Shown here in pieces: positions 8,017-26,253 of a stretch of 55,261 nt of DNA. The position numbers and the translations under genes are program-made. The stretch lies in the NCBI RefSeq assembly GCF_000711885.1, contig NZ_JONK01000033.1:1-55261 (forward strand), in the 5' to 3' direction. Under the pieces are notes generated by a model. The model ran no database searches. It was not told the DNA's origin and saw only the letters and a program-made list of their open reading frames with translations. How positions within the stretch are numbered: the first letter of the stretch is position 1; each line of letters opens with the position of its first letter. Source of the stretch: Chromobacterium haemolyticum DSM 19808. GTDB lineage: Bacteria > Pseudomonadota > Gammaproteobacteria > Burkholderiales > Chromobacteriaceae.

Positions 8017-8145
8017 GGAATCGCCTCCCGCGGAAATGAAGAATCGGCCATGGCCGATGACAGGTGTCGTTACTGAAAGGATTGGAGGGGATTTTGCGGG
8101 AAGCGTGCATGGGCCGGCAGCCGACGAATGTCAGTGCGTGATGAC

Positions 8146-8171: not shown

Positions 8172-8178
8172 CTCTGCC

Positions 8179-9159: not shown

Positions 9160-9210
9160 TAAACAAAAAACGGCAGCGCGCGGCTACCGTTTTGATTCTT
9201 TAACTCTGGG

Positions 9211-9792: not shown

Positions 9793-9802
9793 GAGGGTCT
9801 CC

Positions 9803-11551
9803 TTAGAACTTGATGCAGGCAAGCAGAGCGACGTTGCGGGGACGTGTGGAAAAAGCCCCATTATCTCCACCGCCAGGGACAGCAGAGGCAGCTGCAACGT
9901 AGAAAGTGGTATTGCTCAGATCCGTGGGTGTTTTGTTGCCCTCGACATTGGTGGACCACCCCTCCGTATTCCAAGCCCCGATGGCGGAAGTACCTACCGG
10001 ATAACTTCCACTCAACTTGTCGATCAAATTGCGAATGTAGGTAGGATTCTGAGATGCCCCCAGATTACGTCCCGCATCGACCCCTCTCCCATCATCCCAA
10101 CCACGGATGAATTCCCCTCGCAAGTCAGGCAGATTAAACGTAGTCGCCCCATCCCCAACGCCGAACCTGGTGCCTATCGCCGCGAATAAAGCGGCGTATT
10201 CGGTTCGGCTTACCGCGGTGCCGTTGGCCTTCAGCCAGCCCTCCGGCGCATCGCCCGTGGCAAAGTAGGCGACTTGCCCGGTCAGATGGCCGTCATGTAT
10301 CAAGGTATGCCAGGGGTTCCAGCGCTTGGCGTCGTCGTTGCGGGTACGAAAACGCATGGTGCTTCCCCGCTGATAGTCGGCAGTCAGTTGGCAGGAGTAG
10401 TCAATCTGGCCTCCCAGCCCACCAAAGGCAATGAACGGGCCGGTAACGCCGCTGGAGGTGCCATAGTTGAATCCCATTTCCCCGCCGGTGATAGAGGTAT
10501 CCAGAGAGGTCCCATCCTGCGGATCAATACGGAAACGGCGCTTTTTGAGAAACTGTCCATCGTTCCCGGCATGCCATACCCGGAACTCATTCCCCGTAGC
10601 TTCCTTCAACACCAGTGTGTCATCGCCATAGTTCATGTGTACCAAGGCCACCGCGCTATATCCCGGCCGATGCAGGCCTAAAGATGGGAAATCCACGCCG
10701 GCGGAGCGCAGTTCCATCGTGCCGCTGCTGAATATATTTGCGTCGTAGTTATTCGGTGTGGTCTTTTGAACATGCACGGTCTGCGGGGTAGACAACGCCA
10801 AAGTATTGATACCGTAACCCGCCAGCGAATCGGCCTTATCCGCCTTGCCGGCCAGCTTGTTGGTGATGGTGGCGGCGAAGTCCTTGTCATTGCCCAGCGC
10901 CGCAGCCAACTCCTGCAAGGTATCCAGCGCGCCCGGCGCGCCGTTGACCACGCCATCCACCGCGGCCTTCAACTCGGCCTTGGTCGCGCCATCGGTAATG
11001 CCGTAACCGGCCAACGTGGAAGCGGCGTCGGCCTGTTTCTGCCACTGCGCCCAATTACCCAAGTAACAACAGCGGTACCAGATGCCAGCATTGTTATAAG
11101 CCTGATAGCTCTGATACACCATCTCCTCATCGGCATAGACTTGCAACTTGCCCGCATAGGGCATTGGATAGTTCTTGCCGCTGGTAGCTTTGGCGTTTTC
11201 ACGCTGATTATAGATGCCGGGAGCGATCATATCGTTCAGATCCACCACACCCAACGCCGGTTTCAACGGCAAAGCGTCAGTGATGCCATAGCCTGCCAAC
11301 GTAGTTGGTTTGTTGTTGCCGCCCCAGGCAATCTGCTTGACCGCCTGCAGCAGTTGGTCCTTGCGCTTGGGATCGGCGCTCTGGCCGCTGTCCTTGATCA
11401 CGGCCAGCACTTCGTCCTGAGTGGCCTGCGCGGCGGACTGCATGCCATTCAGCCATTCAGCGCTGACGATGGTGCCAAGTTCGCCACTGACCGGGTTGCC
11501 GTCGTGAAACAACTTGTCAGGCGTGGGAATGGGCTTGATGGTTTCTTGCAT
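9803..11551 (-). CDS. Main tail fibre with collar domain (fibre C)
   Basis: The longest fibre, 582 residues. It has the shared attachment module (residues 1-95), a PLKPALGVVDLNDMIAPGIY segment, GYGI repeats, a region typical of phage fibre shafts (ALDTLQELAAALGNDKDFAA), then WHTLIHDGH and a collar domain (APEGWLKANGTAVSRTEYAALF, FNLPDLRGEFIRGWDDGRG), ending RPRNVALLACIKF. It follows the gp48 gene directly, the place of the host-range fibre in Mu-like phages, and is followed by a Tfa gene, so it is the best candidate for the primary receptor-binding protein. Confidence 0.88.
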   Translation of the reverse strand: MQETIKPIPTPDKLFHDGNPVSGELGTIVSAEWLNGMQSAAQATQDEVLAVIKDSGQSADPKRKDQLLQAVKQIAWGGNNKPTTLAGYGITDALPLKPALGVVDLNDMIAPGIYNQRENAKATSGKNYPMPYAGKLQVYADEEMVYQSYQAYNNAGIWYRCCYLGNWAQWQKQADAASTLAGYGITDGATKAELKAAVDGVVNGAPGALDTLQELAAALGNDKDFAATITNKLAGKADKADSLAGYGINTLALSTPQTVHVQKTTPNNYDANIFSSGTMELRSAGVDFPSLGLHRPGYSAVALVHMNYGDDTLVLKEATGNEFRVWHAGNDGQFLKKRRFRIDPQDGTSLDTSITGGEMGFNYGTSSGVTGPFIAFGGLGGQIDYSCQLTADYQRGSTMRFRTRNDDAKRWNPWHTLIHDGHLTGQVAYFATGDAPEGWLKANGTAVSRTEYAALFAAIGTRFGVGDGATTFNLPDLRGEFIRGWDDGRGVDAGRNLGASQNPTYIRNLIDKLSGSYPVGTSAIGAWNTEGWSTNVEGNKTPTDLSNTTFYVAAASAVPGGGDNGAFSTRPRNVALLACIKF

Positions 11552-11657: not shown

Positions 11658-12236
11658 TTAAGGCTGGTAGGCGAAGTAAACGTGGGTGTGGGCCGGCTTG
11701 AGGTCCTTGAACAGGTCTTCCAGCCGCGGATCGCCGAAGGTGGTGAGACGCTCCCCCGCCAGCGACTGGCCGGCGCGGAAGAAGTACGGCCGGGTCTTGG
11801 CGCCGAACACGGTGACTTGCCACACCCAGGGGATGTCAGCCGTCCACAGCTGCTGACCGGCGCGGTTGATGCCGGCGCGGAAGGGCTGCGGCTCGCTGAT
11901 GGCGATGCGGTAGCCCATGCCAGCCGCCAGCCGGGTGAAGTACGGGATGGACAGGCCGCCGGTTTCCGCCAGCTTGGCCAACACCGCCTGCTGGCGCTGC
12001 TGGTAGGGCGCGTCCGTCGGCGGGGTCAGCCCGCAAACCCGCTCCCAGTCCGGCAGCAGGCCTTCGGCCAGCAGCGGCGTGGTGGCGCCCACCAACTGCC
12101 GGGCGCTGTTCTGCGCCCGGTCCAGCGCCGCGCCTTCGCTGCCCAGTTCGGCTTGCAGCCGCGGCCCGTCAGGACTGTAGCTGACCGGCGGCAGCAAGCG
12201 CGTCAGTAGTTCGCTATGCGGGGTTTGCGGGCTCAT
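11658..12236 (-). CDS. Mu gp48-like tail protein
   Basis: A 192-residue protein of the Mu gp48/YmfQ (DUF2313) type, linking baseplate and fibres. Its second half, RAGINRAGQQLWTADIPWVW and LKPAHTHVYFAY, matches the family's typical ending in which the His is conserved. The ATG at 12236 overlaps the stop of the baseplate J gene by four bases, supporting this start over an upstream one. It precedes fibre C as in Mu-like genomes. Confidence 0.85.
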   Translation of the reverse strand: MSPQTPHSELLTRLLPPVSYSPDGPRLQAELGSEGAALDRAQNSARQLVGATTPLLAEGLLPDWERVCGLTPPTDAPYQQRQQAVLAKLAETGGLSIPYFTRLAAGMGYRIAISEPQPFRAGINRAGQQLWTADIPWVWQVTVFGAKTRPYFFRAGQSLAGERLTTFGDPRLEDLFKDLKPAHTHVYFAYQP

Positions 12237-13297
12237 TGCATCCCCTTCACCGTGAGTTTGCCCAGGCGCAGCCATTCCACCGTTGTTTCGTTTACCGTCG
12301 GCTCGATATTGACGCCAGGCGACAGCAGTTGGCGGTCCACCACGCCGGGCAGGTCGGAGATCAAAGCCTCCAGCCTGCTCTTGTACAGCTTGCTGCCGGG
12401 GGCCAGGCTGGAGAAGTGGGCGGCCAACACCTGGCGCAGCGGTTCGGTAAGCGCCTGGAGCGTGGTGCCGTCCACCGCCAGCCCCACTTCAATGTCCACC
12501 GGCCGCGGTGTGGGCGCCAGCACCAGGCAGTTTTTGGCGGTGACGGGGCGCAGGTCTTCAATATGGGCTTGCACCGCGGCCAGGGTGTCGGCCGAAGGCA
12601 GGCTGTTCTGGGCTGTGATCACCACGTCCACGGTGCCTAGGCCTCGGCGCAGCGGGTAGACGTAGGCGGCGGACACGCCCGGCACTTCCAGCGCCCAGCG
12701 GCGGTAATCGTGGCGGTTGCCGCCCGCCGGCGGACGACGGATCAGTTCCAACAGCCGCGCCAGCAGGGCGGCGTCGTCCTCTTCGTCCACGCCGCCGTCC
12801 ATGTTGACGAAGCTGACGCGGCTAGCCAGGCCGCTGGGCGCGGCCATCAGTTCGGCAACCGTGCCGGCCGGCACGTTGCCGGCCAGGCCGGGCAGATCGG
12901 CAGCCACCGCCACGCGGGCCTGGCCATCCACATCCAGCTGGCCGCCGGCCTGAGTGGTGTAGAGCTGCTCGCCCAGCCGTACTTTCAGGCCGGCGGCGAA
13001 ACCCGCGCCGGGATTGCCGCTCAGTTGCAACAGGCCCTTGGCCGCCACCGGAGGCTTGCGGCTGAGGCCCCGCACACGGGCGTGCTGTTCCAGATAGTCG
13101 CGGTCGGCGCTGTCCGGAAAGATCTGGCGGGCGATCCAGCTTTGATGCTGGTACAAGCCTTCCACCGCGCTGGCGACCGAACTGGCGCGCACGTAGAAAT
13201 CGCTGTCGGGGCCGACGTCGGCGTCGGCGCGCAGGTTTTGCAGATCGCGCAGCAGCGCGCCGCGTATGGTTTCAAAATCCGGGGTGGACAGGGGCAT
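12233..13297 (-). CDS. Baseplate J-like protein (Mu gp47)
   Basis: A 354-residue baseplate wedge protein of the gpJ/Mu gp47 family. Typical parts are the N-terminal helix with DFYVRASSVASAVEGLYQHQ, the DSADRDYLEQHARVRGL segment, the beta-rich middle with GTVAEL and VSFVNMDGGVDEEDDAALLAR, and PRRGLGTVDVVI. Its start overlaps the stop of gp46 (TGATG) and its stop overlaps the next start, indicating tight coupling. It has normal family length. Confidence 0.92.
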   Translation of the reverse strand: MPLSTPDFETIRGALLRDLQNLRADADVGPDSDFYVRASSVASAVEGLYQHQSWIARQIFPDSADRDYLEQHARVRGLSRKPPVAAKGLLQLSGNPGAGFAAGLKVRLGEQLYTTQAGGQLDVDGQARVAVAADLPGLAGNVPAGTVAELMAAPSGLASRVSFVNMDGGVDEEDDAALLARLLELIRRPPAGGNRHDYRRWALEVPGVSAAYVYPLRRGLGTVDVVITAQNSLPSADTLAAVQAHIEDLRPVTAKNCLVLAPTPRPVDIEVGLAVDGTTLQALTEPLRQVLAAHFSSLAPGSKLYKSRLEALISDLPGVVDRQLLSPGVNIEPTVNETTVEWLRLGKLTVKGMQ

Positions 13298-13647
13298 CAG
13301 GCTATCCTCACGTGGTGTTGGAAATGTCGGGTCTGGCCGCCGGCCTCTTCCACTTCGACCAACAGCAGCAAACGGCCGCTGCCGGGACGCTGCGCCTCAA
13401 CGCCGACACGGCGAGCGCGGCCGTCGCGCAATAGCGGCTGCAAGGCTTGCTCGGCGTATTGGCAGGCCAGCAGGTCGATCTGGCTGCTGTCCTTGCTGCG
13501 GGACAACAGGTGCAGGCGGGAACCGAGTTCGGGATCGGCCCACCAACCACCCAGCGGGGTCATCAACCTCAGGTAGACGGCGTTGGCCAGGGTGTCGGTG
13601 GCGCCGCCGGCGTAATCGCCGGTAATGGGGTCCAATAGAGGGTCCAT
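13297..13647 (-). CDS. Mu gp46-like baseplate protein
   Basis: A 116-residue gp46-family protein (DPITGDYAGG start, TLANAVYLRLMTPLGGWWADPELGSRL core). The ATG at 13647 gives the standard family start; upstream in-frame codons fall in the remnant of a mobile element. It corresponds to the gpW/gp25-like wedge component of contractile baseplates. Unlike its neighbours it is not coupled to the upstream gene, because a truncated repeat element occupies the 177 bp between it and gp45. Confidence 0.88.
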   Translation of the reverse strand: MDPLLDPITGDYAGGATDTLANAVYLRLMTPLGGWWADPELGSRLHLLSRSKDSSQIDLLACQYAEQALQPLLRDGRARRVGVEAQRPGSGRLLLLVEVEEAGGQTRHFQHHVRIA

Positions 13648-13740
13648 GGCGTTATTTTCCGGGTTTGAAAGGATTGGGGATAAGGGACGCGGGTCAGTGC
13701 CGGCAGGCGTTCCACCAAGCGATATCAACGGCGCTCTTGG

Positions 13741-13824
13741 CGAAAACGGCAGAAGAAACTGAATGCATGTAGGGTAAGTTTTCAACGCTGTATCGCTGAC
13801 GCGCAGCAGATCGTAAACAGGTTC
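13741..13824. mobile_element. MITE-like element, copy 4 (left end missing)
   Basis: Only the part from CGAAAACGGC to the right end AGATCGTAAACAGGTTC remains, followed by TTA at 13825-13827. This end is identical to the IS end over 17 bases. The TTA is the TAA stop of the gp45 gene. It lies inside the tail operon, between gp45 and gp46. Confidence 0.75.
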
Positions 13825-14448
13825 TTACAACGGCGGACTGGTCGTACCATGCACGCCGTTATGCTGGTGGCCCACCAGACTCTTGCCTCCGGCCACCACG
13901 TCGCCGCTCACGGTGACGCTGCCCTTGACGCTGGCGCCGTTGCCGCCCTGAATGGCCATCCCGCCGTTGCCGTTGATCTGGCCTTGGGCCACCAGCTGCG
14001 CGCTGGTGCTGAGCGTGGGGGTGGTGAAGCTGGCTTGTTCACTGGCGTTGACCTGCCAGTTCTTGCAACGCAGGCTGAAGGTGTCGCACTCCACCTCAAT
14101 CAAGCGGCCACGCTTGAGCACGATCTTGCTGCCTTCGTCGCTGTACAGCGCCACTTCGCCGGGTTTGAGCTGTTTCAGCCGGTAGCTGCCGTGCTCGGTG
14201 GCGATCACCACGCCGTGACTGCTGCGCCCGCCCAAGGGCAGCACTACCGCCATGCTGCCCGGCGGCGGATTGGCGCTGTAGCCGTAGTGTTGAAACAGTT
14301 CTGCGTCCTGCAACTGCTCGCCGGCCAAGGCGTCGGCCTGCACGGTTTGCACATCGCCGGCGCTGTCCACGCGGGTCAGCACCGCGCGAAAGCCTTGCCT
14401 CACATTGCTGAAGGCGCGGCGGATTCTTTGGTCTACGTCATTCCACAT
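13825..14448 (-). CDS. Baseplate spike protein (Mu gp45, gpV-like)
   Basis: A 207-residue gpV/gp45-type spike protein. It begins with the family segment DQRIRRAFSNVRQGFRAVLT, has the OB-fold-like PPPGSMAVVLPLGG and GVVIATEHGSYRLKQLKPGEVALY, and ends in a repetitive beta-helix with GNGG, GGNGASVKGSVTVSGDVVAGGKS and GHQHNGVHG, the metal-binding His tip typical of membrane-piercing spikes. The stop codon belongs to the target site of an inserted repeat, but the tip motif and end look complete. Confidence 0.9.
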   Translation of the reverse strand: MWNDVDQRIRRAFSNVRQGFRAVLTRVDSAGDVQTVQADALAGEQLQDAELFQHYGYSANPPPGSMAVVLPLGGRSSHGVVIATEHGSYRLKQLKPGEVALYSDEGSKIVLKRGRLIEVECDTFSLRCKNWQVNASEQASFTTPTLSTSAQLVAQGQINGNGGMAIQGGNGASVKGSVTVSGDVVAGGKSLVGHQHNGVHGTTSPPL

Positions 14449-14467: not shown

Positions 14468-15526
14468 TCAGCGTTTGTGCATCGCCGGCAGCCAGCGGCC
14501 GTCCTCTTTCAGCGTCAGCCGGGTGGTGCAGCCCTGCCCGCGCCCGCCGCTGAAGGTGCGCGCCATCAGGAAATAAGTGCAGCCCTTGATGCCGTGCGGC
14601 TCGCTTTCCACCTGGATGCGCTGCCCGGGGGTCCACAACTCGCCGGCGCTGTTGCGGTGGCCGGCCACGGTGGCGCTGAGGGTGTAGCCGGCCAGCCGCG
14701 CGTCGGCCAGCATTTTGTCCGCGCGCGCCGCCAGTTCCGCCGGGTTGGCGGCGTCCGGCTCCACCACGATGCGCGGTTTGTGATAGCGGACATCCGGGTC
14801 CGCGGACTGGTGCTTGAGATCGTGTCTGCCCGGGGTCAAGGCCTGACGGTGGCCCTGGCCCAGCAGGGTTAGCTGCGAGTAGCGCGGCGCGTGGGAGCGG
14901 GTTTCCATCAGGCTGAGCACATTGTTGCCCTTGCCGTCGCGGCGCAAGATCAGCTTGGCCTTGGCCGGCGCGCTGTAATCCGGGCCGCCCACCACCAGAG
15001 TGCCGTCCGGATCGAACCAGGCGACGAGGCCGTTGGCCGCCGCGGCGCGGGTGAGCACGTCCCAGGCGCTGTTGCCCGGATCCACGCTGATTTTCTCGAT
15101 CTGGCCATTGCCCTTGGCGTCCACGCGCAGGCGGCTGACGCCCAGCGGCTTGATCACGTTCTCCAGCACATCGCTCAACGTCATGCCCTTGCCGGTAAGC
15201 AACGGCGCGCTGCAGTCCAGCAACATGCCGGCCAGGTCCCGGCCCGACAGCGTCAGCTGATGGCTGCCGGCGCTTATGCTGTGGCTGATGTCGTCCACGC
15301 GCCCCAGCAGCACGACGTCCGCGCCCACCAGCACTTTGACCTCGGCACCAGGCTCCACCGCCGGCGGCACCTCGCCGCCGGGCAGGCCCAGCGACACCTG
15401 CCAGGCGTCGGCGGCCACGGTCAGATCGGAATCGATGCTGTACTGGGTCCAGTAACGATGGGTCTTGCCGGCGATCTGCAGACTGACCTCGTTTTTGTCC
15501 GACGCGGGCTTAGCGGGCGTAGCCAT
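14468..15526 (-). CDS. Baseplate hub protein (Mu gp44/P, gpD-like)
   Basis: A 352-residue baseplate hub of the Mu gp44 (P) family, related to the T4 gp27 and phage late control D fold. Visible parts are the N-terminal LQIAGKTHRYWTQYSIDSDL, GRDLAGMLLDCSAPLL, and WDVLTRAAAANGLVAWFDPDGTL, all usual in this family, and the C-terminal WTPGQRIQVESEPHGI. It overlaps the gp43 stop by 17 bp and lies 20 bp before gp45. It would form the central hub onto which the spike docks. Confidence 0.9.
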   Translation of the reverse strand: MATPAKPASDKNEVSLQIAGKTHRYWTQYSIDSDLTVAADAWQVSLGLPGGEVPPAVEPGAEVKVLVGADVVLLGRVDDISHSISAGSHQLTLSGRDLAGMLLDCSAPLLTGKGMTLSDVLENVIKPLGVSRLRVDAKGNGQIEKISVDPGNSAWDVLTRAAAANGLVAWFDPDGTLVVGGPDYSAPAKAKLILRRDGKGNNVLSLMETRSHAPRYSQLTLLGQGHRQALTPGRHDLKHQSADPDVRYHKPRIVVEPDAANPAELAARADKMLADARLAGYTLSATVAGHRNSAGELWTPGQRIQVESEPHGIKGCTYFLMARTFSGGRGQGCTTRLTLKEDGRWLPAMHKR

Positions 15527-16817
15527 GGATCAGCTCTCCTGCTTGCAGATGGTTGGGATGCGCCAGCTGCGGATTCAAGCGCAGCAGTTCGGCGGCGCGG
15601 CCGCTGTCGCCGTACCACAGGTGGGCCAGCTGACGCAGATTGGCGGCGGACTCCACTTTACGGGTAACGATGGGCGGTTTGGCGGCCACCAGGCCGGCGG
15701 CGCTGCGTTGCACCTGCAGGCCCAAATCCCGCAGGCTTTCAATCACCTGGCGCGCGTCCTCGCCCGGCAGCGCCTTGCGCCATTGCTCTATGGTTTGTTG
15801 CAGCGTGGCGCGCACGTCGCCCGCCACTTGCTCCAGCGCCGGCGGCGTCAACGTGGGTTGTGCGGCTTCCGAACGGAACAGGTCGGCGGCGGCGTTCGCC
15901 ATTGAGGTGGATACCGTCAGTTTGAGCAAGGCGTCGATGCGAATCTCGTCCTCGGTCCATACTTCCAGCGCCTTACCGGCTTGGTTCAAGGTATCGGACG
16001 CGCGGCCGATTTTCTTGGACACGCCGTTGAGCCTGTCCTTCATCGCGTTCCAATCAGCCAGAGTGGCCTGCGGCAGCTTGGCTTCCGCCTCCCACTTCAG
16101 GCCCGGCCAGATATCCAGTTTGACGCCAAAACGCCAATTGGCGACCTCGTCCACCAAGGACGTCACCTGGCCGATGAAGGCTTGCGGGTAGGCCAACAAG
16201 TCCACCACCTGGGCAATGCCTTGCTGCGCCATGCCGGCAAGCTGCCGCACGGTGTCGCTCAAGCGCACGCGCAGCGCGCCCAGGCGAGTCAGCGCCGTAT
16301 TGGCGTTTTGCAACAGGCCCTGAGCCTTGGCGAAGGCCTCGCCGCCCAAACTGCGCGCCTTGGCCGCCAAGGCGCTGATGGCCTCGACCTGCTGCAGGGG
16401 ATGCTGGCTGGCGAAAAAGGGATTGCCCGGCGTGGCCTCCACCCAGTTCACTTCCACCGTGCAGGAGTCCGGCGCGTCGGCCTCGTGACTGATCTGGTAA
16501 TCCAGCACCTGAGCCTTGGGCATGCTGCCAAATACCGGGTGAATCAATTCGCCCGGCCCGGCCTGGTCCAGCGCGGCGACAAAGTCACGTAGCCGCTGCT
16601 GATAATCGCGGCCCCAGAAGAAGACGCTAAGCGATACCTTGCGCGCCTTGCGGCCCAGGTCTTCTACGTCGGCGCCGTCCAGATAAGGGTATTCGTGCAT
16701 CGCCTGGTCTCGCTGGGCGCTGTCCACGCTGCGCAGGCATTCAAAGCGCACACCACGAAAACTGGCGTCCACCAGCGCGCCGGCGGCGGAGCCGGTAAAC
16801 AGACCGAGATTGAACAT
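15510..16817 (-). CDS. DNA circulation-like tail protein (Mu gp43/N)
   Basis: A 435-residue Mu gp43 (N) family protein with the DNA_circ_N domain at the start: FRGVRFECLRSVDSAQRDQAMHEYPYLDG and VFFWGRDYQQRLRDFVAALDQAGPGELIHPVFG. The C-terminal part HLWYGDSGRAAELLRLNPQL with LQAGELI resembles a LysM-like fold used in tail proteins to join hub and tube. Despite the domain name its role in Mu-like tails is in tail assembly at the tube/baseplate junction. Its start overlaps the stop of the preceding gene (TGATG). Confidence 0.88.
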   Translation of the reverse strand: MFNLGLFTGSAAGALVDASFRGVRFECLRSVDSAQRDQAMHEYPYLDGADVEDLGRKARKVSLSVFFWGRDYQQRLRDFVAALDQAGPGELIHPVFGSMPKAQVLDYQISHEADAPDSCTVEVNWVEATPGNPFFASQHPLQQVEAISALAAKARSLGGEAFAKAQGLLQNANTALTRLGALRVRLSDTVRQLAGMAQQGIAQVVDLLAYPQAFIGQVTSLVDEVANWRFGVKLDIWPGLKWEAEAKLPQATLADWNAMKDRLNGVSKKIGRASDTLNQAGKALEVWTEDEIRIDALLKLTVSTSMANAAADLFRSEAAQPTLTPPALEQVAGDVRATLQQTIEQWRKALPGEDARQVIESLRDLGLQVQRSAAGLVAAKPPIVTRKVESAANLRQLAHLWYGDSGRAAELLRLNPQLAHPNHLQAGELIHGYAR

Positions 16818-18565
16818 CAGCTTCTCCTTTGTTGTTGGCTATTGGCGGCGTTGACGGCGGCGACGATATTGCCGTTTTGGACGTCGACGGTGACTTGGAT
16901 GGGTTGGGACAGCACACTGCTGAGCTGAGCCAGGGTAGATTGGAGCTGGCTAAGAAGCGCTTGTAATGCAGGGACCTCTTGATCTACCTTTGCCGCCATT
17001 GCCGTGGGATTGCCTCCCTTAACAGCATTTACAGCCTCTGAGCTTGGGGTCGCCCTTTTATTTGCTGCAATGGCTTTGCCGGCTGCAGGTTTGTTCCCCG
17101 CAGGCTTGGGTGTCACAGCCTTAGCTGGCTTGCCAACTGAAGCCGGTGGCTTAACGATTTCAGCAGGCTGTTTCGATGGCTTTTGCTCTATCGATTTATG
17201 GCCGTTAGAAGAAACTTCGATTCTTCCTTGTTTAAAGCCTTCCACCTTTTTCATGCCATCTAGCAAAGCTTCAAACTCGTTGGGCTTCAGATCCTTAATC
17301 TTTTTCCCATGTAAATCCAAGTTCCGACTTGCAGCCAACTTATGAATATTTTTTGCATAAGCAGCCACATCTGCCGTTCCTGAGTAATCGGAAATTGCAT
17401 ATTTTGGCAACATTTGCTCAATGGTTTTATTGCCATGTTGTCTAGTCAACAATTGAGACTTCGCTGCACGTCCAGCAGCCTCTGTTTCAAAGATGGCATT
17501 CCCCCACTGATCAAGGTCTATTACACCCTGATAGCGTTTACTTGCATCAGAGAGGGCTTGTTTTTTACTGCGCTTACTCTTATCTGTTTTATCAGCACTT
17601 CCGGCATAACCGAATTTCAGGTTACCGGGGTTATTATTACGCCATGAGACAGTGCCATCACTTCTGGTTTGCACTGAGCCATCTTTCATTTGATAAGTTC
17701 GAGTCTTACCAACGCTGGAAAGCAAGCCGACAATAGTTTGAGACTCACGACTATTTCCTGACCTTGTCACGCCAGCTTTAGGTGAGGTATCAGCTTCTTT
17801 TTTTATTGCAGCAATAGGTTTTTTTTCTTTCCCAGCCAAAATATTAAGCTGTTCTGACACATGATCAGAAGAGTGTCTGTTCTCAACTTGGTCAATAGCT
17901 GCACTTAGCAGTTGACCTGTCACCCCCCCTACAATAGCGCCTGGTATTTTTTGCTTCCACGTCATCTCTGCTTTCGGCAACGTAGTTTTTGACCCTAGAT
18001 GCGGCCCAGTCAAACCAGAAACGGCACTACCATCAACCACATAGTTTTTAAACGTCTTCGGCATGCCTTTCCCTACTGCAGGCAAGCCCAAACTCTTATT
18101 CTTTTCTTTATACTGCGGAGTTTTAACCACAGCACCTGCAGCAGCAGGATCTATCGTTGCTCCATCAAAGCCAAAAGATTGGGATACTGCTTGTGCAATT
18201 GCGCCACCTAAAGAGTGTCCTGTTACTAGAATATTTGCATTTTCCCCAGCTTCTTTTTTTATCTGCCGTGCAAAATCCATCCCCTGGCGAAACTGTTCAT
18301 CATAACGTCCACGTGCAATGTTTAAATCAGCTCCTGACACATCTCCTAAATCATCTGTTCCACGGTATGCAATCACTATTTGACCATCATTTTTATTACG
18401 AAACGAGACAGCGGCGAAGGAACCCTCTACTTTAGGCCATAGATTTAGCTCCCAATCTTTAAACTTCGGATCGCTTGCTAGCGCTTTAACAATGGTTTCT
18501 TCATCCTTGTAGGCTAGTTTAGAAAACTCTCCGAGCAATGCATCGTTTCTAACAGATGAAGTCAT
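16817..18565 (-). CDS. Lipase/peptidoglycan-hydrolase chimera at tape-measure position
   Basis: A 582-residue protein between the tube and gp43 genes, where Mu-like tails carry chaperone gp41 and tape measure gp42. Residues 1-200 form a class 3 lipase-like alpha/beta hydrolase: YRGTDD (68-72), GHSLGG (116-121, Ser118 nucleophile), Asp139 and His189 as candidate triad members. Residues 305-450 contain WRNNNPGNLKFG and a helical region with AIFETEAAGRAAKSQLL, as in phage-type peptidoglycan hydrolases. A Lys/Pro/Ala-rich linker (460-505) follows. Residues 525-582 (SQPIQVTVDVQNGNIVAAVN) look like the tail of Mu-type tape measures. DNA from about 17000 to 18560 is visibly AT-richer than either flank, while the last segment is GC-rich. 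There is no signal peptide or long coiled coil. Read as a recombinant cargo/tape-measure protein; its actual role is unknown. Confidence 0.75.
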   Translation of the reverse strand: MTSSVRNDALLGEFSKLAYKDEETIVKALASDPKFKDWELNLWPKVEGSFAAVSFRNKNDGQIVIAYRGTDDLGDVSGADLNIARGRYDEQFRQGMDFARQIKKEAGENANILVTGHSLGGAIAQAVSQSFGFDGATIDPAAAGAVVKTPQYKEKNKSLGLPAVGKGMPKTFKNYVVDGSAVSGLTGPHLGSKTTLPKAEMTWKQKIPGAIVGGVTGQLLSAAIDQVENRHSSDHVSEQLNILAGKEKKPIAAIKKEADTSPKAGVTRSGNSRESQTIVGLLSSVGKTRTYQMKDGSVQTRSDGTVSWRNNNPGNLKFGYAGSADKTDKSKRSKKQALSDASKRYQGVIDLDQWGNAIFETEAAGRAAKSQLLTRQHGNKTIEQMLPKYAISDYSGTADVAAYAKNIHKLAASRNLDLHGKKIKDLKPNEFEALLDGMKKVEGFKQGRIEVSSNGHKSIEQKPSKQPAEIVKPPASVGKPAKAVTPKPAGNKPAAGKAIAANKRATPSSEAVNAVKGGNPTAMAAKVDQEVPALQALLSQLQSTLAQLSSVLSQPIQVTVDVQNGNIVAAVNAANSQQQRRS

Positions 18566-18693: not shown

Positions 18694-19068
18694 TTACTCA
18701 ATGATTTTACGCAGCGACAACAGCTTGATATCGCGACGCGCTTCGCTTTCCACGCCGTATTTTTCGCCCACTTCCAGCGTGAAGCAGTCCAGGTAACTGG
18801 TGCGCTTGCCGCCTGGCGCTGCGGGGAACTCGGTCAGCTTGGCGCCTTCGATCGCTTCCCAGTCCAGCTCGCCGGACAGCGGGATGGAGACGGTGACGGA
18901 CAGCTCGTATTCCGAGATGCCGCGCGCGAAGCCGCGGGCGCGGCCGCTGCTGTTCATGGTTTTCACCAGCTTGCGGCCGGTCTTGCTGCTGACGTTCAGA
19001 TCAATGACGTCGATTTCCTGGCCGTTGACTTCCAGTACGATCGAACCTGCGTATTCTTTCAAAGCCAT
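18694..19068 (-). CDS. Tail tube protein (Mu gpM-like)
   Basis: A 124-residue tail tube protein of the Mu gpM family. It opens with YAGSIVLEVNGQEIDVIDLNV and has the usual KTGRKLVKTMNSSGRARGFARG and LSVTVSIPLSGELDWEAIEGA segments. It lies directly downstream of the sheath gene, the standard order. An RBS (AAAAGGAC) precedes the ATG at 19068. Next comes the lipase chimera after only 128 bp, too short to hold a gp41-type tail assembly chaperone. Confidence 0.9.
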   Translation of the reverse strand: MALKEYAGSIVLEVNGQEIDVIDLNVSSKTGRKLVKTMNSSGRARGFARGISEYELSVTVSIPLSGELDWEAIEGAKLTEFPAAPGGKRTSYLDCFTLEVGEKYGVESEARRDIKLLSLRKIIE

Positions 19069-19254: not shown

Positions 19255-20676
19255 TTACAGCAGCAGATCGATGCGGCCGGCGAACACATGCAGGCCGTTG
19301 ACCACGTCCACCGGGATCTTGGCGTCCAGACGGTTCACGTCTTGCGCGTCGCGCTCGACGATCAGGCCGTCCTTGTTCGCTTCCACCGCCTCGATGATTT
19401 CCAGCTCTTCCAGCTTGTAGAGCACGTCCAGCAGCTCAGAGCGGACCTTGGACGGGGTGCGGTCGGACAGCTTCTCGCGCGGGAAACGCAAGGCCACGCG
19501 TTCGCGGCAGGCGCGGCGCACGTAGTCCAGGGTGCGGATCGTGGTCAGATCCAGCAGCGACACATCGTCCACGCCCTGGGCGTCCTTGGTGTAAGTGCTG
19601 ATGGAGCGCACGATCTGCACGCGTTCGCCCGGGCCTACTTCCAGCGGAGTCACGCCGTTGTAGAGCGCGTTTTCCTGCTCGGTGCGGCTGGTGCGGGCGG
19701 CCAGTTCCACTACGTCCAGGCCTTTGAGTTCCAGGGTATTCAGCGGACGGGCCGGATCTTCCTCGCTGGCGATCACCGCGGCGTAAGCGGCGGCCAATTC
19801 GCCCGGCAGCTTGGAGGAACCGCGATACCAGGCGGCGCTCACGCGGCCGCAGGCCAGTTTGGACGCGACGGCGCTGACTTCCGACAGCGCGCCGACGGCG
19901 CCGACCACGCCGATGGCGCCGCGTTGCTCCATAGGGCCGGACACGAAGTCCAGATGGGTGCGCAGCGCGGTGAAAGCGGCGTCGTTATTGAACGGGTTGA
20001 CCACAATGTGGTGGCCGCCGCTCACCACGGCAGCCAGCGCCGGAGCAATGTCCGGATCGGCTGCGCCGCCCTTCATCGCGCCCACGGTGATGCCAAGACC
20101 GGCAATCTGTTCCTGCGCTTTCAGCGTGATGGCGTTGCCTGCGGCGCCCTTGTGACGGGCGGTGAGGGTCAGCACTTCCTTGGCGACCGCGGCGGTCACC
20201 GGCAAATCCGCCAACTTATCTACAGCGGCCTTGGCGGCGGCGGCGATTTTGGCGGCGTCGTCGCCGGCGGCCACGGCCACGTCGATACGGCGGCCGCCGA
20301 TAAACAGGCTGGCCACGCCGGCGCCGGTGGCCGGGCCGGTAAAGGTGAAGGAGCCGACGGCGGCGGCGGCGCTGTCCGCGTCGTCAACCGAGATCACGCT
20401 CAGTTGCAGATAGGGGTTGGCGTTGATGGCGGCGCGGGCCAGCAGGTGGGCGTAGGAGCCGCGGCCGAAAGCCTGGGCGGCCTGCTCGTCGCTGAACACG
20501 TCCAGCGCGGCCAGAGCCGGCTGAGCGGCGTCGGCGAAACGCTGGCCGATCACCAGTACGCGTTGCGGGTTGCCCGGCAGGGTGCGCACCGCCAGCTTGG
20601 TGTTGAACTCAAAGTATTTGCCCGGCTTGCGGATGGACGCCGGAATCTGGTCGAAGCTGATGTTGGGGCTGGCCAT
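19255..20676 (-). CDS. Contractile tail sheath protein (Mu gpL-like)
   Basis: A 473-residue sheath protein, the defining component of contractile tails. Family segments include the start ISFDQIPASIRKPGKYFEFNT, FSDEQAAQAFGRGSYAHLL, NPYLQLSVISV and the C-terminal RTLDYVRRACRERVALRFPREKL, DRTPSKVRSELLDVLYKLEE. An RBS (AGGAGCCC) stands upstream. Followed after 186 bp, with no gene seen in the gap, by the tube gene. Its presence makes this an R-type (contractile) particle rather than a flexible one. Confidence 0.93.
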   Translation of the reverse strand: MASPNISFDQIPASIRKPGKYFEFNTKLAVRTLPGNPQRVLVIGQRFADAAQPALAALDVFSDEQAAQAFGRGSYAHLLARAAINANPYLQLSVISVDDADSAAAAVGSFTFTGPATGAGVASLFIGGRRIDVAVAAGDDAAKIAAAAKAAVDKLADLPVTAAVAKEVLTLTARHKGAAGNAITLKAQEQIAGLGITVGAMKGGAADPDIAPALAAVVSGGHHIVVNPFNNDAAFTALRTHLDFVSGPMEQRGAIGVVGAVGALSEVSAVASKLACGRVSAAWYRGSSKLPGELAAAYAAVIASEEDPARPLNTLELKGLDVVELAARTSRTEQENALYNGVTPLEVGPGERVQIVRSISTYTKDAQGVDDVSLLDLTTIRTLDYVRRACRERVALRFPREKLSDRTPSKVRSELLDVLYKLEELEIIEAVEANKDGLIVERDAQDVNRLDAKIPVDVVNGLHVFAGRIDLLL

Positions 20677-20751: not shown

Positions 20752-21450
20752 TCAACTAACGGGCGGCTTGGGCTGCAGCACGACATCCTGGGCTTTGACG
20801 CCCGGCTTGCCGTCCAAGCGATAATCCAGCCGGGTGCTGCGCCATTCGGCGGCGGTGCCTTCCAGCCGACCGCCAAAGCGGGCGAACAACTGGTCCGGAT
20901 CGGCCTCGCCCTGAGGCGACGGCCAATGGCCGTTGTCCAGCGCTTCGTCCAGCCAGTGAGTGGCGAAATCGCAGGCCACTAGGCTCCACGGTTCGCCGTC
21001 GCGCTGCGCCTGGCCCAGAGGGCGCACTTGCTCGGGCATCAAGGGCGACACCGCCAGGCCGAAATCCTGAGCCGCCAGCAAGCGGCGCACCGCGTAAACC
21101 AGCTGCCAGACGCCGGCGCCGGCGTAGCCGCGATCCGCCTGCAGCCGATCTCCGACAATGACGGTGAAACGGGCCTGCGTCTTGTAGCGCTGGCGTTGGC
21201 TGGCCGAGGGCTGGCAGGCGGTGACGCCGCCGGCTACGGTCCACAAGGCCGGCAAGCGCGCCAGCGCCTGCGGATTCAGGCCCGGACTGCCCGCCGCCGG
21301 CGTCAGCCGGCTTTGGTGACGGCCTTGCGCCAGATCCAGCCCGCAGAGCCCGGTTTCGTCCAAGTCGGCCGCCACTTCGCGCACCATGCGGCCCAGACCC
21401 TGGCGCAGGCGGTCGGCGATGGCGTCTTGCAGTTGGATCAGCTGGGACAT
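20752..21450 (-). CDS. Mu gp37-like protein (DUF1834 type)
   Basis: A 232-residue protein in the position of Mu gp37, upstream of the sheath. Family-type features are QLIQLQDAIADRLRQGL at the start, the RYKTQARFTVIVGDRLQADRGYAG segment and GVWQLVYAVRRLLAAQDFGL. Gp37-family proteins resemble tail terminator or completion proteins. Here it may cap the tube of a particle with no head. It is the first structural gene after the LamG fibre, and all head genes normally found before it are absent. Confidence 0.82.
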   Translation of the reverse strand: MSQLIQLQDAIADRLRQGLGRMVREVAADLDETGLCGLDLAQGRHQSRLTPAAGSPGLNPQALARLPALWTVAGGVTACQPSASQRQRYKTQARFTVIVGDRLQADRGYAGAGVWQLVYAVRRLLAAQDFGLAVSPLMPEQVRPLGQAQRDGEPWSLVACDFATHWLDEALDNGHWPSPQGEADPDQLFARFGGRLEGTAAEWRSTRLDYRLDGKPGVKAQDVVLQPKPPVS

Positions 21451-21566: not shown

Positions 21567-22847
21567 TCAGGCCTTGATGCAGGCCAAGAGGGCTATGTTG
21601 CGCGGGCGAGCTGCGCCGACCGAGCTGACGTAGTTGCTCAGCGCGCCCTTGACGCCGGTTACGTAGTGCATTTCCAGGCCTGGGTAGCCCGCCAGGTCTG
21701 GAACATCCGCGCCGAAGGCGGCGGTGCCGGCGGCGGCCTGCCCTGTGCCCACATTGGTGCTGATGTTGTAGAGCTCGTTGTCGCTGAAGTACTCGTTGAC
21801 GGCGACCAGAGTGCCTTTCTGCGCACTGCCGAGCTTGCGAGCCAGATCCACGCCGCGCCCATCATCCCAGCCGCGGATGAACTCGCCACGCAGGTCGGGC
21901 AGTTGAAACAGCTCCGTGTGTTCAGGGCGAGAGGAGCCGGTCTGCTCGCTAGGCGGAGTGAACTCGACCAGATAGCGGCATTTCTTGGAGATCATCCAAT
22001 CCTGAAAGTAGCCGCCGGCAGAGTCGGCGTAAACCGGGTCGTGACCATCTACTGAAAACACAATGGTGTTGTCCGGAATATTGACCTTCAGCTCAGTCTT
22101 CAAGCTCCACACCAGCTTGCCGTCGACAAAGAGTCGATAGGTCGCGCCGTCGTAACACAGCGCGATGTGGTACCAGCGGGTCTCGGGAAAAGTATTGGCC
22201 AGGCCCTGCACGCCTTCACAGATGAAACCGGAGCCTGGGCCGGCCAGCCAAACCATTGGTGCCTTGGTCTGCGAGTGGATACCTAGGCCGATCTCGCCCC
22301 AAGGCGCCGAAGCGTTCATGCCGAAGACCCAATTGGGATGACCGGTGAACATCGGGTAATGCCAGCCTTCAATGGTGAAAGCATCCGGGTTGAACTTGCT
22401 TTGTACAGTGAAACGGGCGTAATTGCCCTTGGCCTTGGTTTGCAGACTGGTTTTACCGAATTTGCTTTGTTCGGAGCTCTGGCTCGCGGAGCCTACCAGC
22501 ACTGCCTCTTTACCGCTGACCAGATCGATCAGTTTGTTGCGATCGTCAAACTTGAGCAGCGCTTGGATATCCGCGTCCATTTCCTTATTAGCGAACATGT
22601 CGCCAATGGCTTGGTACAAGGACGCGTACTGCTGTTTGGACACCAGCGTGCCATCCGCCTTGAGCCAGCCTGCCGGCGCTTCCTTTCGGGCGAAATACTG
22701 GATGGCGCCGCTCGGAACCGAAGCGCCCGAGTTTGCGCCGTCGTTGCAGCAGCCCTGATTCATTTCGATACGCACGGGGTTGGTTTCAGCTTGCCCCAGG
22801 ACATTGACCTGGAATTGCGGTTTGATACAGACAGTCGTGTTCGACAT
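21567..22847 (-). CDS. Fibre with LamG-like domain inside collar (fibre D)
   Basis: A 426-residue fibre unlike the other three at its N-terminus. Its collar domain is split: SGAIQYFARKEAPAGWLKAD and YASLYQAIGDMF stand at residues 46-87, and FQLPDLRGEFIRGWDDGRG only at about residue 320. Between them is a concanavalin/LamG-like domain with SKFNPDAFTIEGWHYP, RWYHIALCYDGATYRLFVDGKLV and VFSVDG, a common carbohydrate-binding fold. The C-terminus RPRNIALLACIKA is the same as in fibres A and C. It sits at the opposite end of the tail gene set, before gp37. Probably a glycan-binding receptor protein or a tail tip decoration. Confidence 0.8.
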   Translation of the reverse strand: MSNTTVCIKPQFQVNVLGQAETNPVRIEMNQGCCNDGANSGASVPSGAIQYFARKEAPAGWLKADGTLVSKQQYASLYQAIGDMFANKEMDADIQALLKFDDRNKLIDLVSGKEAVLVGSASQSSEQSKFGKTSLQTKAKGNYARFTVQSKFNPDAFTIEGWHYPMFTGHPNWVFGMNASAPWGEIGLGIHSQTKAPMVWLAGPGSGFICEGVQGLANTFPETRWYHIALCYDGATYRLFVDGKLVWSLKTELKVNIPDNTIVFSVDGHDPVYADSAGGYFQDWMISKKCRYLVEFTPPSEQTGSSRPEHTELFQLPDLRGEFIRGWDDGRGVDLARKLGSAQKGTLVAVNEYFSDNELYNISTNVGTGQAAAGTAAFGADVPDLAGYPGLEMHYVTGVKGALSNYVSSVGAARPRNIALLACIKA

Positions 22848-23220: not shown

Positions 23221-23227
23221 GTGAAAC
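23214..23227 (-). promoter_or_regulatory. parS-like site 2
   Basis: GTTCCACGTGAAAC on the plus strand, a full match to the ParB-binding core GTTNCACGTGAAAC; with flanks it reads TGTTCCACGTGAAACC. It overlaps the GTG start codon and leader of the XhlA-like gene. Confidence 0.7.
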
Positions 23228-23234
23228 CCACCTT

Positions 23235-23434: not shown

Positions 23435-24007
23435 TTATGGTCCTTCGGAAGTAAACAGCCCGCCGAGCGCCGTCAGCCTTTGTTCCAGCTGTTGGCACCA
23501 GGCGCCGTAGTCGGCGGCATGAGCCAGGAGGTCTGCTGCCGGTAGCCCGGCGCCGGCGGCGGCGGCTTGATTGGGATTTGCAATAGAAACGGAGTCGGTT
23601 GCGGACATTGAGGGGGCGGAATAACCGAGGACTTGCCGGTAGAGGCGCAGGCTGTCAGGGCCAAGGCCGCCATAGCGGCCGCCATCCTGTTGCACGACAT
23701 ATTCGATCCTTTGTTTCTGGTCTTGCAGCCGCTGCTGCAGATCCTGTTGTTGACTCAGCAAGCGCGCTTCTTGCCGGCCCAGCAGTTCGCGCAAGCGTTG
23801 CTGCTGTTGCAAAGCGGCCTGCAATTGCCGTTGGGCGCGCTCGGCCTCGGCGGCCTGACGGCCTTGATCCGCCGCCCGCTGTTCGGCCAAGCGCGCGCGC
23901 CAGCCCTCCGCGCCGTGGCGCAGCCCCAGCGGATAGGCCAGGCACGCCGCCAACAACGGCGGCAGCAGCCAGCTTCCCAGCTTCAACCATGCGGGCACCG
24001 GGCCCAT
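23435..24007 (-). CDS. Inner-membrane spanin subunit (Rz-like)
   Basis: A 190-residue protein with one N-terminal membrane segment (LKLGSWLLPPLLAACLAYPL) and a long Gln/Arg/Glu-rich periplasmic coiled coil (about residues 35-110), the layout of Rz-type i-spanins that fuse inner and outer membranes in the last step of lysis. The start at 24007 overlaps the holin stop (TGATG). A second frame inside it encodes the matching lipoprotein. It ends by TAA three bases before the DksA-like start. Confidence 0.83.
   Translation of the reverse strand: MGPVPAWLKLGSWLLPPLLAACLAYPLGLRHGAEGWRARLAEQRAADQGRQAAEAERAQRQLQAALQQQQRLRELLGRQEARLLSQQQDLQQRLQDQKQRIEYVVQQDGGRYGGLGPDSLRLYRQVLGYSAPSMSATDSVSIANPNQAAAAGAGLPAADLLAHAADYGAWCQQLEQRLTALGGLFTSEGP
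23473..23700 (-). CDS. Outer-membrane spanin lipoprotein (Rz1-like), embedded
   Basis: A 75-residue frame lying wholly inside the Rz-like gene in another reading frame. It has a short hydrophobic start and a lipobox (ALALTAC), then a proline-rich mature part (VIPPPQCPQPTPF and IPIKPPPPAPG). Embedded, proline-rich lipoproteins are the classic Rz1 arrangement. The exact start among ATGs at residues 1, 6 and 10 is uncertain. Partner of the Rz-like protein above. Confidence 0.82.
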   Translation of the reverse strand: MSCNRMAAAMAALALTACASTGKSSVIPPPQCPQPTPFLLQIPIKPPPPAPGYRQQTSWLMPPTTAPGANSWNKG

Positions 24008-24231
24008 CAGCGGCCGCCTCGATCCCGCCAGGCGGCGATCAGACGCAAACCCGCGGAGTAGCCGCCGACAATGCCGAGATAAATCAGCCAGATATCCGCG
24101 CCCAAGGTGCCGCGCAGCCCTTCCACCACGAACAACAGCGTGGCGGCCGCGCAGGCGATGTTCGCCCACAGCCGAGAATGGCTCAGCCGGCGGCCGCCGG
24201 GCCGGGTCAGCAAATCGGACAGACGCATCAT
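24007..24231 (-). CDS. Putative holin
   Basis: A 74-residue protein with two hydrophobic segments (LWANIACAAATLLFVVEGL and IWLIYLGIVGGYSAGLRL) and a basic N-terminus (RLSDLLTRPGGRRLSHSR). Between the endolysin and spanin genes, this two-segment plan points to a small class II-like holin, although holins share little sequence and the call rests on place and shape. It overlaps the endolysin stop by four bases and the Rz start by one to three, so the lysis genes are coupled. Confidence 0.72.
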   Translation of the reverse strand: MMRLSDLLTRPGGRRLSHSRLWANIACAAATLLFVVEGLRGTLGADIWLIYLGIVGGYSAGLRLIAAWRDRGGR

Positions 24232-24650
24232 TTCTTCTCCTTGTCGAGGCTGGTCGAATTCAACTCAAAGTGGGGAAACTCGCGGAACGGCGCGTCGGCC
24301 CTGCCGTACCAGTTCAGGCCCAGCGCGGCGCCGATCTCGCCCATCACCTGCCAGTGCGGATGGTGGGCGTCCCAGACCGGCTTGCCGCCGATCAGCGGGA
24401 CTACGTCGAAAGCTCGCGCCGCCGGACTGCCGTGCAACATGGCGTTGTGCGCGGACTGGCCCGCGCGGGCGTTGGTCACCTTCGGCCCAGGCCGGGAACG
24501 GCCCTGAGCGAACAAGGCGTCCTGTTCCGCGCCGGAACGCCAGGTGCAGGTGATCAAGGCCTCAACGCCGGCGTCGCGGCAGCGCCGTACAAACGCCTCG
24601 GCCAAGGGTTGCAACTGCGGATGCAGGTCGGAAATAGCTCTGCTGGCCAT
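24228..24650 (-). CDS. M15-type endolysin (L-Ala-D-Glu peptidase-like)
   Basis: A 140-residue peptidoglycan peptidase of the M15 (VanY/endolysin) type. Zinc-ligand motifs are SAHNAMLHGSPAARAFDVV (His and Asp of the S-x-H-x(n)-D pattern) and the late H of REFPHFEL. GRSRPGPKVTNARAGQS matches the family loop before the first ligand. The ATG at 24650 starts MASRAISDLHPQLQPLAEAF, the usual beginning of this endolysin group, with an AAGGAG site upstream. There is no signal peptide, so release would depend on the holin that follows. It would open the cell to free the tail particles. Confidence 0.87.
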   Translation of the reverse strand: MASRAISDLHPQLQPLAEAFVRRCRDAGVEALITCTWRSGAEQDALFAQGRSRPGPKVTNARAGQSAHNAMLHGSPAARAFDVVPLIGGKPVWDAHHPHWQVMGEIGAALGLNWYGRADAPFREFPHFELNSTSLDKEKK

Positions 24651-24790
24651 GAAGACTCCTTGTTGTTGACGAAACGTGGCACATTGGCCGGCCGTCATGC
24701 GCGGCGCGCGCGCAGCCCTGCCAGGCATGGACGGAACCGGCTAGAAACAAACAGGAGAAATCGGAAGAGAGGGGGAGGCGGCGTATAGCC

Positions 24791-25204
24791 TTAATGCAGA
24801 TCTTGGCTGGGCGTTTTCAGCACGCGCCACACCATGCGGTCGCTCAGTTGGAAGCGGATGGCCAGCACGCTGACCGCCTCGTTGGCGCCCAGGCCTTGCT
24901 CCAGCAGTTGGTCGAAGTCATTCAACAACTGCTGATTGCGCGCCAGACGCAAGGCCTGGCTGCAACGCGGCACGTACAGGATGTCGCCGCCAAAGTGATG
25001 AGTCAGGCTGGCGGCGGCGTCTTCGCCTATCACTTCCACTAAAGCGGCAAAACGCAACTGACCCGCCTTGCTTTGGTTTTTGGAAATGGGCAAGGTAGTG
25101 CCGCCCAAGGCCTGCACCAGTTGCAAGGTGCGCGGCAAGCCGATCAGCTCAGCCACCAGGCGCATGGTTTCGGGCAGGGCCGGGGCGATATTGGCTACGG
25201 TCAT
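24791..25204 (-). CDS. Mor-type transcription activator
   Basis: A 137-residue activator of the Mor/C family of phage Mu, which turns on middle and late promoters by DNA bending and contact with RNA polymerase. Characteristic parts are LGGTTLPISKNQ, HHFGGDILYVPRCSQALRLARNQQL, DFDQLLEQGLGANEAVSVLA and RFQLSDRMVWRVLK, the last being the helix-turn-helix. It is the first minus-strand gene after the control region and is divergent from the S24 repressor, so it is the natural switch for the lysis and tail genes. An RBS (AGGAGATC) lies upstream. Confidence 0.9.
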   Translation of the reverse strand: MTVANIAPALPETMRLVAELIGLPRTLQLVQALGGTTLPISKNQSKAGQLRFAALVEVIGEDAAASLTHHFGGDILYVPRCSQALRLARNQQLLNDFDQLLEQGLGANEAVSVLAIRFQLSDRMVWRVLKTPSQDLH

Positions 25205-25309: not shown

Positions 25310-25533
25310 CACGGGCAAGCCCATGAATTATATTGAAATCGGATGTGTTGGCAGCCCCTGAGACACATGACTGGCTGAACCCCGGTTACTTTTGAACTTT
25401 TCTCGAATTCATAAGTGCTATTTTAGTTCAAAACATAAAACTGATCAATTAGTACGATGTCACTCCCTGTCCTTTTGTACAGGGCATTTGACCGGGCCGT
25501 GGCGCCGGCCTAGCACGCCAAATGGAGTTCTAC

Positions 25534-26253
25534 ATGGAAAAAAACTTGGAACAGAGTGACTTCAAACAGCGGCTGGAACTGCTGATTGGGGCGGAGAAGC
25601 CCTACGCCTGGGCTACCCGCATTGGAATCAACAAAGGTTCGTTCACCAATATGTGGTATCACGGCGGCGTGCCGCGCGCAGCCACCGCCAGCAAGATCGC
25701 GGAGGCTAGCGGGTGCAGGCTAGAGTGGCTTTTGCACGGTAGCGGCCCGCAGTACGACGCAGCCCCTCCGCCCGGCGCGTCCATCCGACTAGAACGAGAT
25801 CCGGATTGTTTTGTACCGGACAACGTTCATGAAGAGTTCTGTTTTATCCCGCGCTATAACCTGAAAGCCTCGGCCGGCTTCGGTTCCAATGCCAGCGAAG
25901 AAGCGCCGATGTTCTATATGGCGTTCCGAAAATACTGGATCAAGAACCACCTGAACGCCTCCGCCCGGGATCTGGCGGTAATCAGCGTCAAGGGCGACAG
26001 CATGAGCGGCGTGCTGGAGGACCGCGATACCATCTTGGTCAACACCGCCGAACACTCTCCCGGCGAAGGGCTTTACGTGATCCGCATGGGCGACGACATC
26101 TTCGTCAAGCAGTTGCAACGTTTGCCAGGCGGCGCGGTGCAGGTTCGCAGCGCCAACCCCTTGTACGAGACCTTTACCGTGGACTTGCAGCGCAATACCG
26201 GCGAGTTCGAAGTCATCGGCCGCGTGGTCTGGTTTGGGCGGCAGATTGGCTAA
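25534..26253 (+). CDS. S24-family phage-type repressor
   Basis: A 239-residue LexA/CI-like repressor. The N-terminal ~70 residues form a helix-turn-helix (ATRIGINKGSFTNMW, then ASKIAEASGCRLEWLL). The C-terminal S24 domain has the Ser of VKGDSMSG (156) and Lys of IFVKQLQR (192), with an Ala-Gly pair in KASAGFG (114-115) as likely self-cleavage site. Such repressors are cleaved with RecA help after DNA damage. The ATG at 25534 is preferred because GGAG lies six bases upstream; an in-frame ATG at 25522 contains that site. Divergent to the Mor-like activator. The TAA stop is the target site of a repeat element. Confidence 0.88.
   Translation: MEKNLEQSDFKQRLELLIGAEKPYAWATRIGINKGSFTNMWYHGGVPRAATASKIAEASGCRLEWLLHGSGPQYDAAPPPGASIRLERDPDCFVPDNVHEEFCFIPRYNLKASAGFGSNASEEAPMFYMAFRKYWIKNHLNASARDLAVISVKGDSMSGVLEDRDTILVNTAEHSPGEGLYVIRMGDDIFVKQLQRLPGGAVQVRSANPLYETFTVDLQRNTGEFEVIGRVVWFGRQIG

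Follow-up and report, generated by a model that had tools for sequence, protein, structure and literature searches.

R-type tailocins (pyocins, diffocin) are headless contractile tails encoded with lysis genes. According to excerpts of PMC12090994 and PMC11329794, they contain a structural tape measure and kill by membrane depolarisation or a channel; the former excerpt describes tailocin killing as channel formation, and the latter places the diffocin tape measure in the lumen as a trimer, its N-termini lying at the collar and its C-termini resting on the spike. In actinobacterial contractile injection systems the headless tail carries tape-measure-derived cargo with diverse domains (Tme/Sle1; excerpts of PMC11126660 and PMC13277306). 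Its coiled-coil N-terminal half is tape-measure-like, its C-terminal half is an effector, and it is tied to DUF4157, in Tme or in a partner. Phage tape measures can bear wall-lytic domains (PMC10194240, as excerpted), and tape measures are described with C-terminal zippers that resemble the translocation motif of a type VI secretion system (T6SS) effector (PMC10240207, likewise in excerpt). Here we describe a gene within a 55,261-nucleotide stretch of Chromobacterium haemolyticum DSM 19808 (contig NZ_JONK01000033.1; hereafter the window, meaning the whole stretch), which encodes a lipase-bearing protein in the tape-measure position of a Mu-type contractile tail cluster and is referred to as the cargo gene.

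From sequence comparison we judge it probable that this cluster specifies a domesticated headless contractile Mu-type tail (tailocin), in which the tape-measure body and its chaperone have been replaced by exchangeable cargo. Tme/Sle1 is likewise tape-measure-related cargo, with the opposite domain order. Here, unlike in the excerpts on Tme/Sle1, it is the N-terminal part that varies, little more than the C-terminal end being retained, and the tail is of a released, Mu-like type in a Gram-negative genus; no DUF4157 core domain was found among the Pfam matches of the protein or of the scanned cluster proteins. Lytic phage tape measures (PMC10194240, in part; L020, L036, L037, L039) share with the cargo the presence of lytic domains in a protein of the tube, as the cargo would be, and the RNNNPGNL domain itself, yet they keep their body, whereas the present locus has lost body and chaperone and has a lipase. 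Antibacterial effectors of the T6SS and of the X-type IV secretion system (X-T4SS) are likewise modular proteins with envelope-attacking domains (9cys; PF21277 on L087; PF20410 on L021-L024), but use another carrier and loading signal, and no immunity gene was recognised here. Beside the cargo gene there is no T6SS carrier (Hcp, VgrG, PAAR); its neighbours are Mu-type tail genes. No report of an enzyme-swapped tape measure in a tailocin was found in the open-licence part of PMC, which is not proof of absence.

The cargo protein and its tape-measure end

The first-pass annotation had placed the gene between those for the tail tube and gp43, giving no strand. We confirmed this position (phrog_185 tube, DNA_circ_N gp43) and found the minus strand; the gp43 start overlaps the stop codon of the cargo gene. 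With sheath, tube and baseplate genes in one cluster (Pfam, PHROG), the locus matches the R-type tailocins in gene content. Head families were absent from the scanned cluster proteins and Portal_Mu from this genome; gp37 bears the PHROG label 'head', yet corresponds to Pfam Mu Gp37. As had also been supposed, no second tape measure was seen in a scan of 18 open reading frames (ORFs) between Mor (25204) and the fibre (9803), all of which matched other families (the small ORF at 23005-23322 a family of unknown function), and the phrog_794 tape-measure body gave no match in the cargo protein up to E 0.1.

The class 3 lipase proposed earlier from GHSLGG at residues 116-121 exceeded the Pfam cut-offs (Lipase_3, 22.6 bits, cut-off 22; Mbeg1-like, 25.1 bits, cut-off 21.1). 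The AlphaFold2 (AF2) model of this domain (predicted local distance difference test, pLDDT, 73.7) had as its best solved fold 9cys, a T6SS lipase effector (E 5.4e-9, TM-score 0.58). GHSLGG forms the GxSxG elbow of an alpha/beta hydrolase fold, with a model strand at 112-118 followed by a helix at 119-131, and alignment to a fungal lipase via profile A3 points, by alignment position only, to D178 and H231 or H235 as candidate catalytic Asp and His. Beyond these tailocins the lipase has only weak relatives: matches occur in 33 of 399 order genomes, its own among them, and the best of the others reaches 47% identity over about 97 residues.

In the RNNNPGNL domain (AF2 pLDDT 85.7; predicted TM-score, pTM, 0.82) the motif begins at residue 309. 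It has no Pfam family of its own, and its profile gave five chance-like matches against PDB sequences (best E 0.05). Relatives were found in phage tape measures (L020, L036, L037, L039) and in X-Tfe (T4SS) effectors; four Xanthomonadales-type records (L021-L024) combine it in one protein with PG_binding_1 and the X-Tfe secretion domain (PF20410). The motif and domain noted in the first reading were thus recovered, and its comparison with peptidoglycan hydrolases is plausible, wall hydrolysis being what we infer. Searched as a whole, the protein matched two phage records, both over residues 290-465 only, and phmmer found nothing among PDB sequences. A role of the cargo as lysis enzyme for particle release is unlikely, because a VanY-like gene and a spanin are already present.

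Profile A1, built from the last 60 residues (19 rows), found the C-terminal end in 42 IMG/VR loci and, among genomes, in 24 of the 61 in the family and 8 of the 399 in the order; the four order loci outside the family appear tape-measure-like by eye. The same last ~28 residues close phrog_794 tape measures in prophage loci (L110, L111, L112, L118, L119, L121 and L124; E 1e-130 to 6e-202). For L122 (phrog_794 at 1e-168) the end did not align, and L131 matched phrog_794 at 5e-9 only. Tape measures of other families end in this motif as well; a search of phages with the last 60 residues gave no match. Judged by these alignments, the cargo closes, over its last 30 or so residues, with a genuine Mu-type tape-measure end, as the first-pass annotation had suspected. 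The 145-residue family phrog_4543, of unknown function, matches the C-terminal ends of both cargo and tape measures, including 16820-16975, and may be a tape-measure C-terminal family.

Exchange of cargo bodies among related tailocins

We compared the DNA of the window with that of nine close relatives. L026, which has the same architecture, aligned throughout at 90%. The eight others (L048, L050, L051, L052, L087, L088, L089, L092) were 91-94% identical as far as the tube stop codon, give or take 13 bases, had no similarity after that point and resumed at 87-94% from 26-47 codons before the gene end. One extra break lies upstream in L048 and L087, and L050 and L092 encode an identical protein. 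Comparison of the sequences shows that the body alone is exchanged between near-identical tailocins, which bears out the earlier proposal of a body swapped in before an old tape-measure end. In a quick tree of five core proteins from 33 loci, run without a shuffled control and with labels assigned partly by eye (the split L107 as a label of its own), the architecture label changes at least 23 times. The window clade of nine loci bears five labels, its core proteins being 90-99%, mostly at least 95%, identical to those of the window.

Among the 19 genomes of the genus, counting that of the window, 18 had the tube, and these 18 also carry the A1 tail and open frames at the cargo site. In three of them (L041, L042, L049) the site holds a tape measure of 581-602 amino acids (aa) (phrog_794, E 3e-19 to 1e-21) with a tail assembly chaperone upstream (phrog_508 for L049; profile for all three). 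The other 15, including the window, have a different body of 543-762 aa and no chaperone upstream. A one-off broken tail, the alternative offered at first, is less likely, since these 15 of 18 genomes share an open-frame arrangement at one site. The chaperone profile, which started from L041, L042 and L049 and underwent one round of widening, missed the chaperone at the tape-measure loci L122 and L131, so its absence is firmest within the tailocin set; PF10109 (Phage_TAC_7) occurs in 19/19 genus genomes, with none of the places listed falling within tailocin stretches. A transmembrane-like segment was seen in 3/3 tape-measure forms and 0/15 others, and overlapping GxxxGxxxG motifs number 9-13 in each of the three forms and eight in L046. 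Mor and S24 genes accompany all 17 loci L040-L056, and the neighbouring host gene 12 of them (stretches being cut), so that the site is shared. In another genus of the family, one of two genomes shows the arrangement (L126, 622 aa, transglycosylase domain, no chaperone), with no Mor or S24 match nearby.

A lipolytic or wall-lytic domain was assigned to 11 of the 15 bodies, either from a library match or because a closely similar sibling had one: the window (lipase), L040 and L043 (transglycosylase PHROGs), L044, L047, L051, L052, L053, L055, L056 and, by similarity only, L054. Across siblings the bodies include lipase, M23, GH19, NlpC/P60, glucosaminidase, transglycosylase and VgrG3-like domains, with IMG/VR siblings adding glucosaminidase (L093) and a T6SS VgrG3-like C-terminal domain (L087:4369-6150, PF21277, E 2e-68). 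The M23 call for the first domain of L040, L045, L087, L095, L105 and L126 was made by eye, and profile comparison with true M23 gave a probability of 2.8. In L043:7512-10605 the space from tube to gp43 is taken up by two ORFs of 543 and 440 aa, the first ending in the tail and the second, by eye, in a divergent tail; in L107:4132-6096 several ORFs make up the cargo, among them one wall-peptidase-like, one lysozyme-like and one with linker and tail.

In GC content the earlier-noted AT-rich shift at about 17000 agrees with our scan: 0.44-0.45 over 17001-18500 and 0.455 for the tube-to-gp43 stretch, against 0.621 for the window, climbing back at the tail-like end of the cargo gene. AT-richness is not general, as five of the 15 genus bodies have GC 0.58-0.65, the other ten being AT-rich (0.42-0.52).

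The portal search covered 35 of the 42 IMG/VR loci, seven short fragments being left out. Portal_Mu was found in 0/23 tailocin records vs. 11/12 records with tape-measure bodies (library match or BLAST), the single miss being a 14.5 kb fragment. Among the 23 tailocin records, L106 still has its tape measure and chaperone, and L117, a tape-measure-body record, has the tail in a short separate ORF. Full prophages with the A1 end retain the tape measure. By this division, body replacement was seen only in headless clusters.

Proposed cargo loading and delivery, and the rival readings

The retained C-terminal end would dock on the gp45 spike or hub in the tube and so load the cargo, and contraction would expel it into the envelope of a target bacterium, where the lipase would act on phospholipid and the RNNNPGNL domain probably on the wall. 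The swap would trade a membrane-inserting body for envelope enzymes; because the forms without a tape measure have no hydrophobic segment, damage would come from the enzymes and not from the channel alone. The first proposal, of a cargo that attacks membrane and wall and is loaded through its tail, is plausible, and the comparisons suggest that tailocins with swapped bodies carry exchangeable toxic cargo and do not only punch holes. The lipase fold, nearest to that of a T6SS lipase effector, the VgrG3-like T6SS domain in the L087 body and the RNNNPGNL domain, shared with X-Tfe effectors, speak for this. We give even chances to a wider proposal, in which Chromobacterium tailocins would be released, cell-free counterparts of the T6SS, with the tape-measure slot a cassette site for polymorphic envelope toxins, the C-terminus a loading anchor and the tube assembling without canonical tape measure or chaperone. 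If the cargo reading is true, these genus-wide tailocins, with interchangeable domains that mostly attack the envelope, would be natural enzyme-loaded contractile particles, pointing to a short loading anchor. The features by which a tape measure fixes tail length, and the way a tube holds its cargo, would become testable questions, and the natural length variants (543-762 aa) at one site offer a direct test of the ruler rule.

Several points weigh against enzyme delivery. Particles, loading, killing and enzyme activity are all predicted from sequence only, and four of 15 bodies (L045, L046, L048, L050) have no assigned activity, L046 having a sub-cut-off glycine zipper. Even the closest solved structure matches the RNNNPGNL model weakly, and the domain occurs in ordinary phage tape measures too; as wall lysins are also known in tape measures, e.g., enterococcal transglycosylases (PMC10194240, excerpt), a penetration role is conceivable. 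The last cargo codons (window 16820-16835) double as the gp43 Shine-Dalgarno, so that conservation of the tail is partly unrelated to loading, and a constraint on the DNA may explain the invariant RR encoded there. An immunity gene was not recognised: tube, cargo and gp43 leave no room for one between them, and other places were not searched. Tailocin producers are protected by receptor specificity.

It is possible, although we find it doubtful, that the cargo is still a tape measure, rebuilt to set tail length and equipped with virion-associated lysins that aid envelope crossing, so that the tube kills and the enzymes are accessory. Its position and C-terminus, its length range set beside that of the tape-measure forms, the RNNNPGNL domain and other wall lysins inside phage tape measures, and the lack of another ruler in the cluster would all fit. 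The lipase and the bodies without recognisable lysins fit badly, however; the chaperone and the transmembrane-like segment are lost together, bodies swap among otherwise near-identical tailocins, and DNA-injecting prophages keep a normal tape measure. A decayed tail that has lost its tape measure and forms no particles is improbable: a tape-measure body is indeed missing and the sibling L107 is split into several ORFs, but frames are open at the site in 18/18 tailocin genomes, all tail genes are kept, and tube and sheath are strongly conserved across the genus.

We hold it highly improbable that the tail is kept for DNA reasons (the gp43 Shine-Dalgarno, a homology block for recombination) and that the bodies are passenger genes which are not loaded. 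Besides the Shine-Dalgarno in the final cargo codons, low synonymous variation agrees with such a constraint, the proportion of synonymous differences (pS) being 0.214 in the last 16 codons vs. 0.383 in the first 30 gp43 codons (17 tailocin rows, L043 excluded); the corresponding tube figure, obtained by aligning ends without gaps, is given no weight. Yet codons -29 to -17 are, from their substitution pattern, clearly constrained at the protein level, with proportions of non-synonymous differences (pN) of 0.139 in tailocins (pS 0.459) and 0.072 in prophage tape measures (pS 0.575; 12 rows). The motif also recurs at tape-measure ends of other families, and the first cargo gene of L043 keeps the tail though the second ORF, not gp43, comes next.

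The tail cluster and its surroundings

On the minus strand the cluster runs from the Mor-type activator through the VanY-like gene, a small membrane protein, the Rz-like spanin, a DksA-like protein, a small protein of unknown function, collar/LamG, gp37, sheath, tube, the cargo gene and gp43 to gp48 in order, and ends with the fibre (Table 1). Host-type genes flank it on both sides (aminotransferase, C69 peptidase and alanyl-tRNA-editing-like protein; GDSL lipase and chemotaxis protein). A promoter/terminator scan gave no signal above shuffles.

Table 1. Features of the cargo gene and the surrounding tail cluster (window positions)
Feature	Position	Strand	Basis
Cargo gene, 582 aa, tape-measure position	16817..18565	-	Open frame; tube and gp43 adjoin
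Class 3 lipase domain, residues 1-245, GHSLGG at 116-121	17831..18565	-	Pfam Lipase_3 above cut-off; AF2 model; fold match
RNNNPGNL domain, residues 267-455	17201..17767	-	Alignment A4; AF2 model; relatives
Pro/Ala/Lys-rich linker, residues about 456-530	16976..17200	-	Read from translation
Short stretch of predicted helix, then the C-terminal end of tape-measure type, residues about 531-582	16820..16975	-	Alignment A1; shared with tape measures
Tail tube	18694..19068	-	phrog_185, E 5e-27
Tail sheath	19255..20676	-	phrog_165, E 4e-179
gp37-like protein	20752..21450	-	Pfam Phage_Mu_Gp37, E 1e-42
Collar/LamG protein, fibre-like	21567..22847	-	Pfam Collar and Laminin_G_3
gp43-like protein	15510..16817	-	DNA_circ_N, E 4e-32; phrog_184
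gp44-like baseplate hub	14468..15526	-	Pfam/PHROG library match
gp45-like spike	13825..14448	-	Phage_Mu_Gp45, E 2e-28
gp46-like protein	13297..13785	-	Pfam GP46
gp47-like baseplate wedge	12233..13297	-	phrog_6, E 1e-71
gp48-like baseplate wedge	11658..12275	-	phrog_203, E 7e-69
Tail fibre	9803..11551	-	phrog_1858, E 3e-65
Rz-like spanin	23435..24169	-	phrog_1403, E 6e-28
VanY-like lysis gene	24228..24728	-	Pfam VanY, E 2e-4, below cut-off
Mor-type activator	24791..25204	-	Pfam Mor, E 3e-13
S24 repressor	25522..26253	+	Pfam Peptidase_S24, E 2e-17

The collar protein, whose gene precedes gp37, has an inserted LamG domain and is matched only partially in most genus loci. Two of the fibre genes within 5785-11551 of the window have similar first 96 residues (76%), and a third, variable fibre-like ORF lies at 7015-8016; the fibre genes of this region are perhaps spare or exchangeable fibres.

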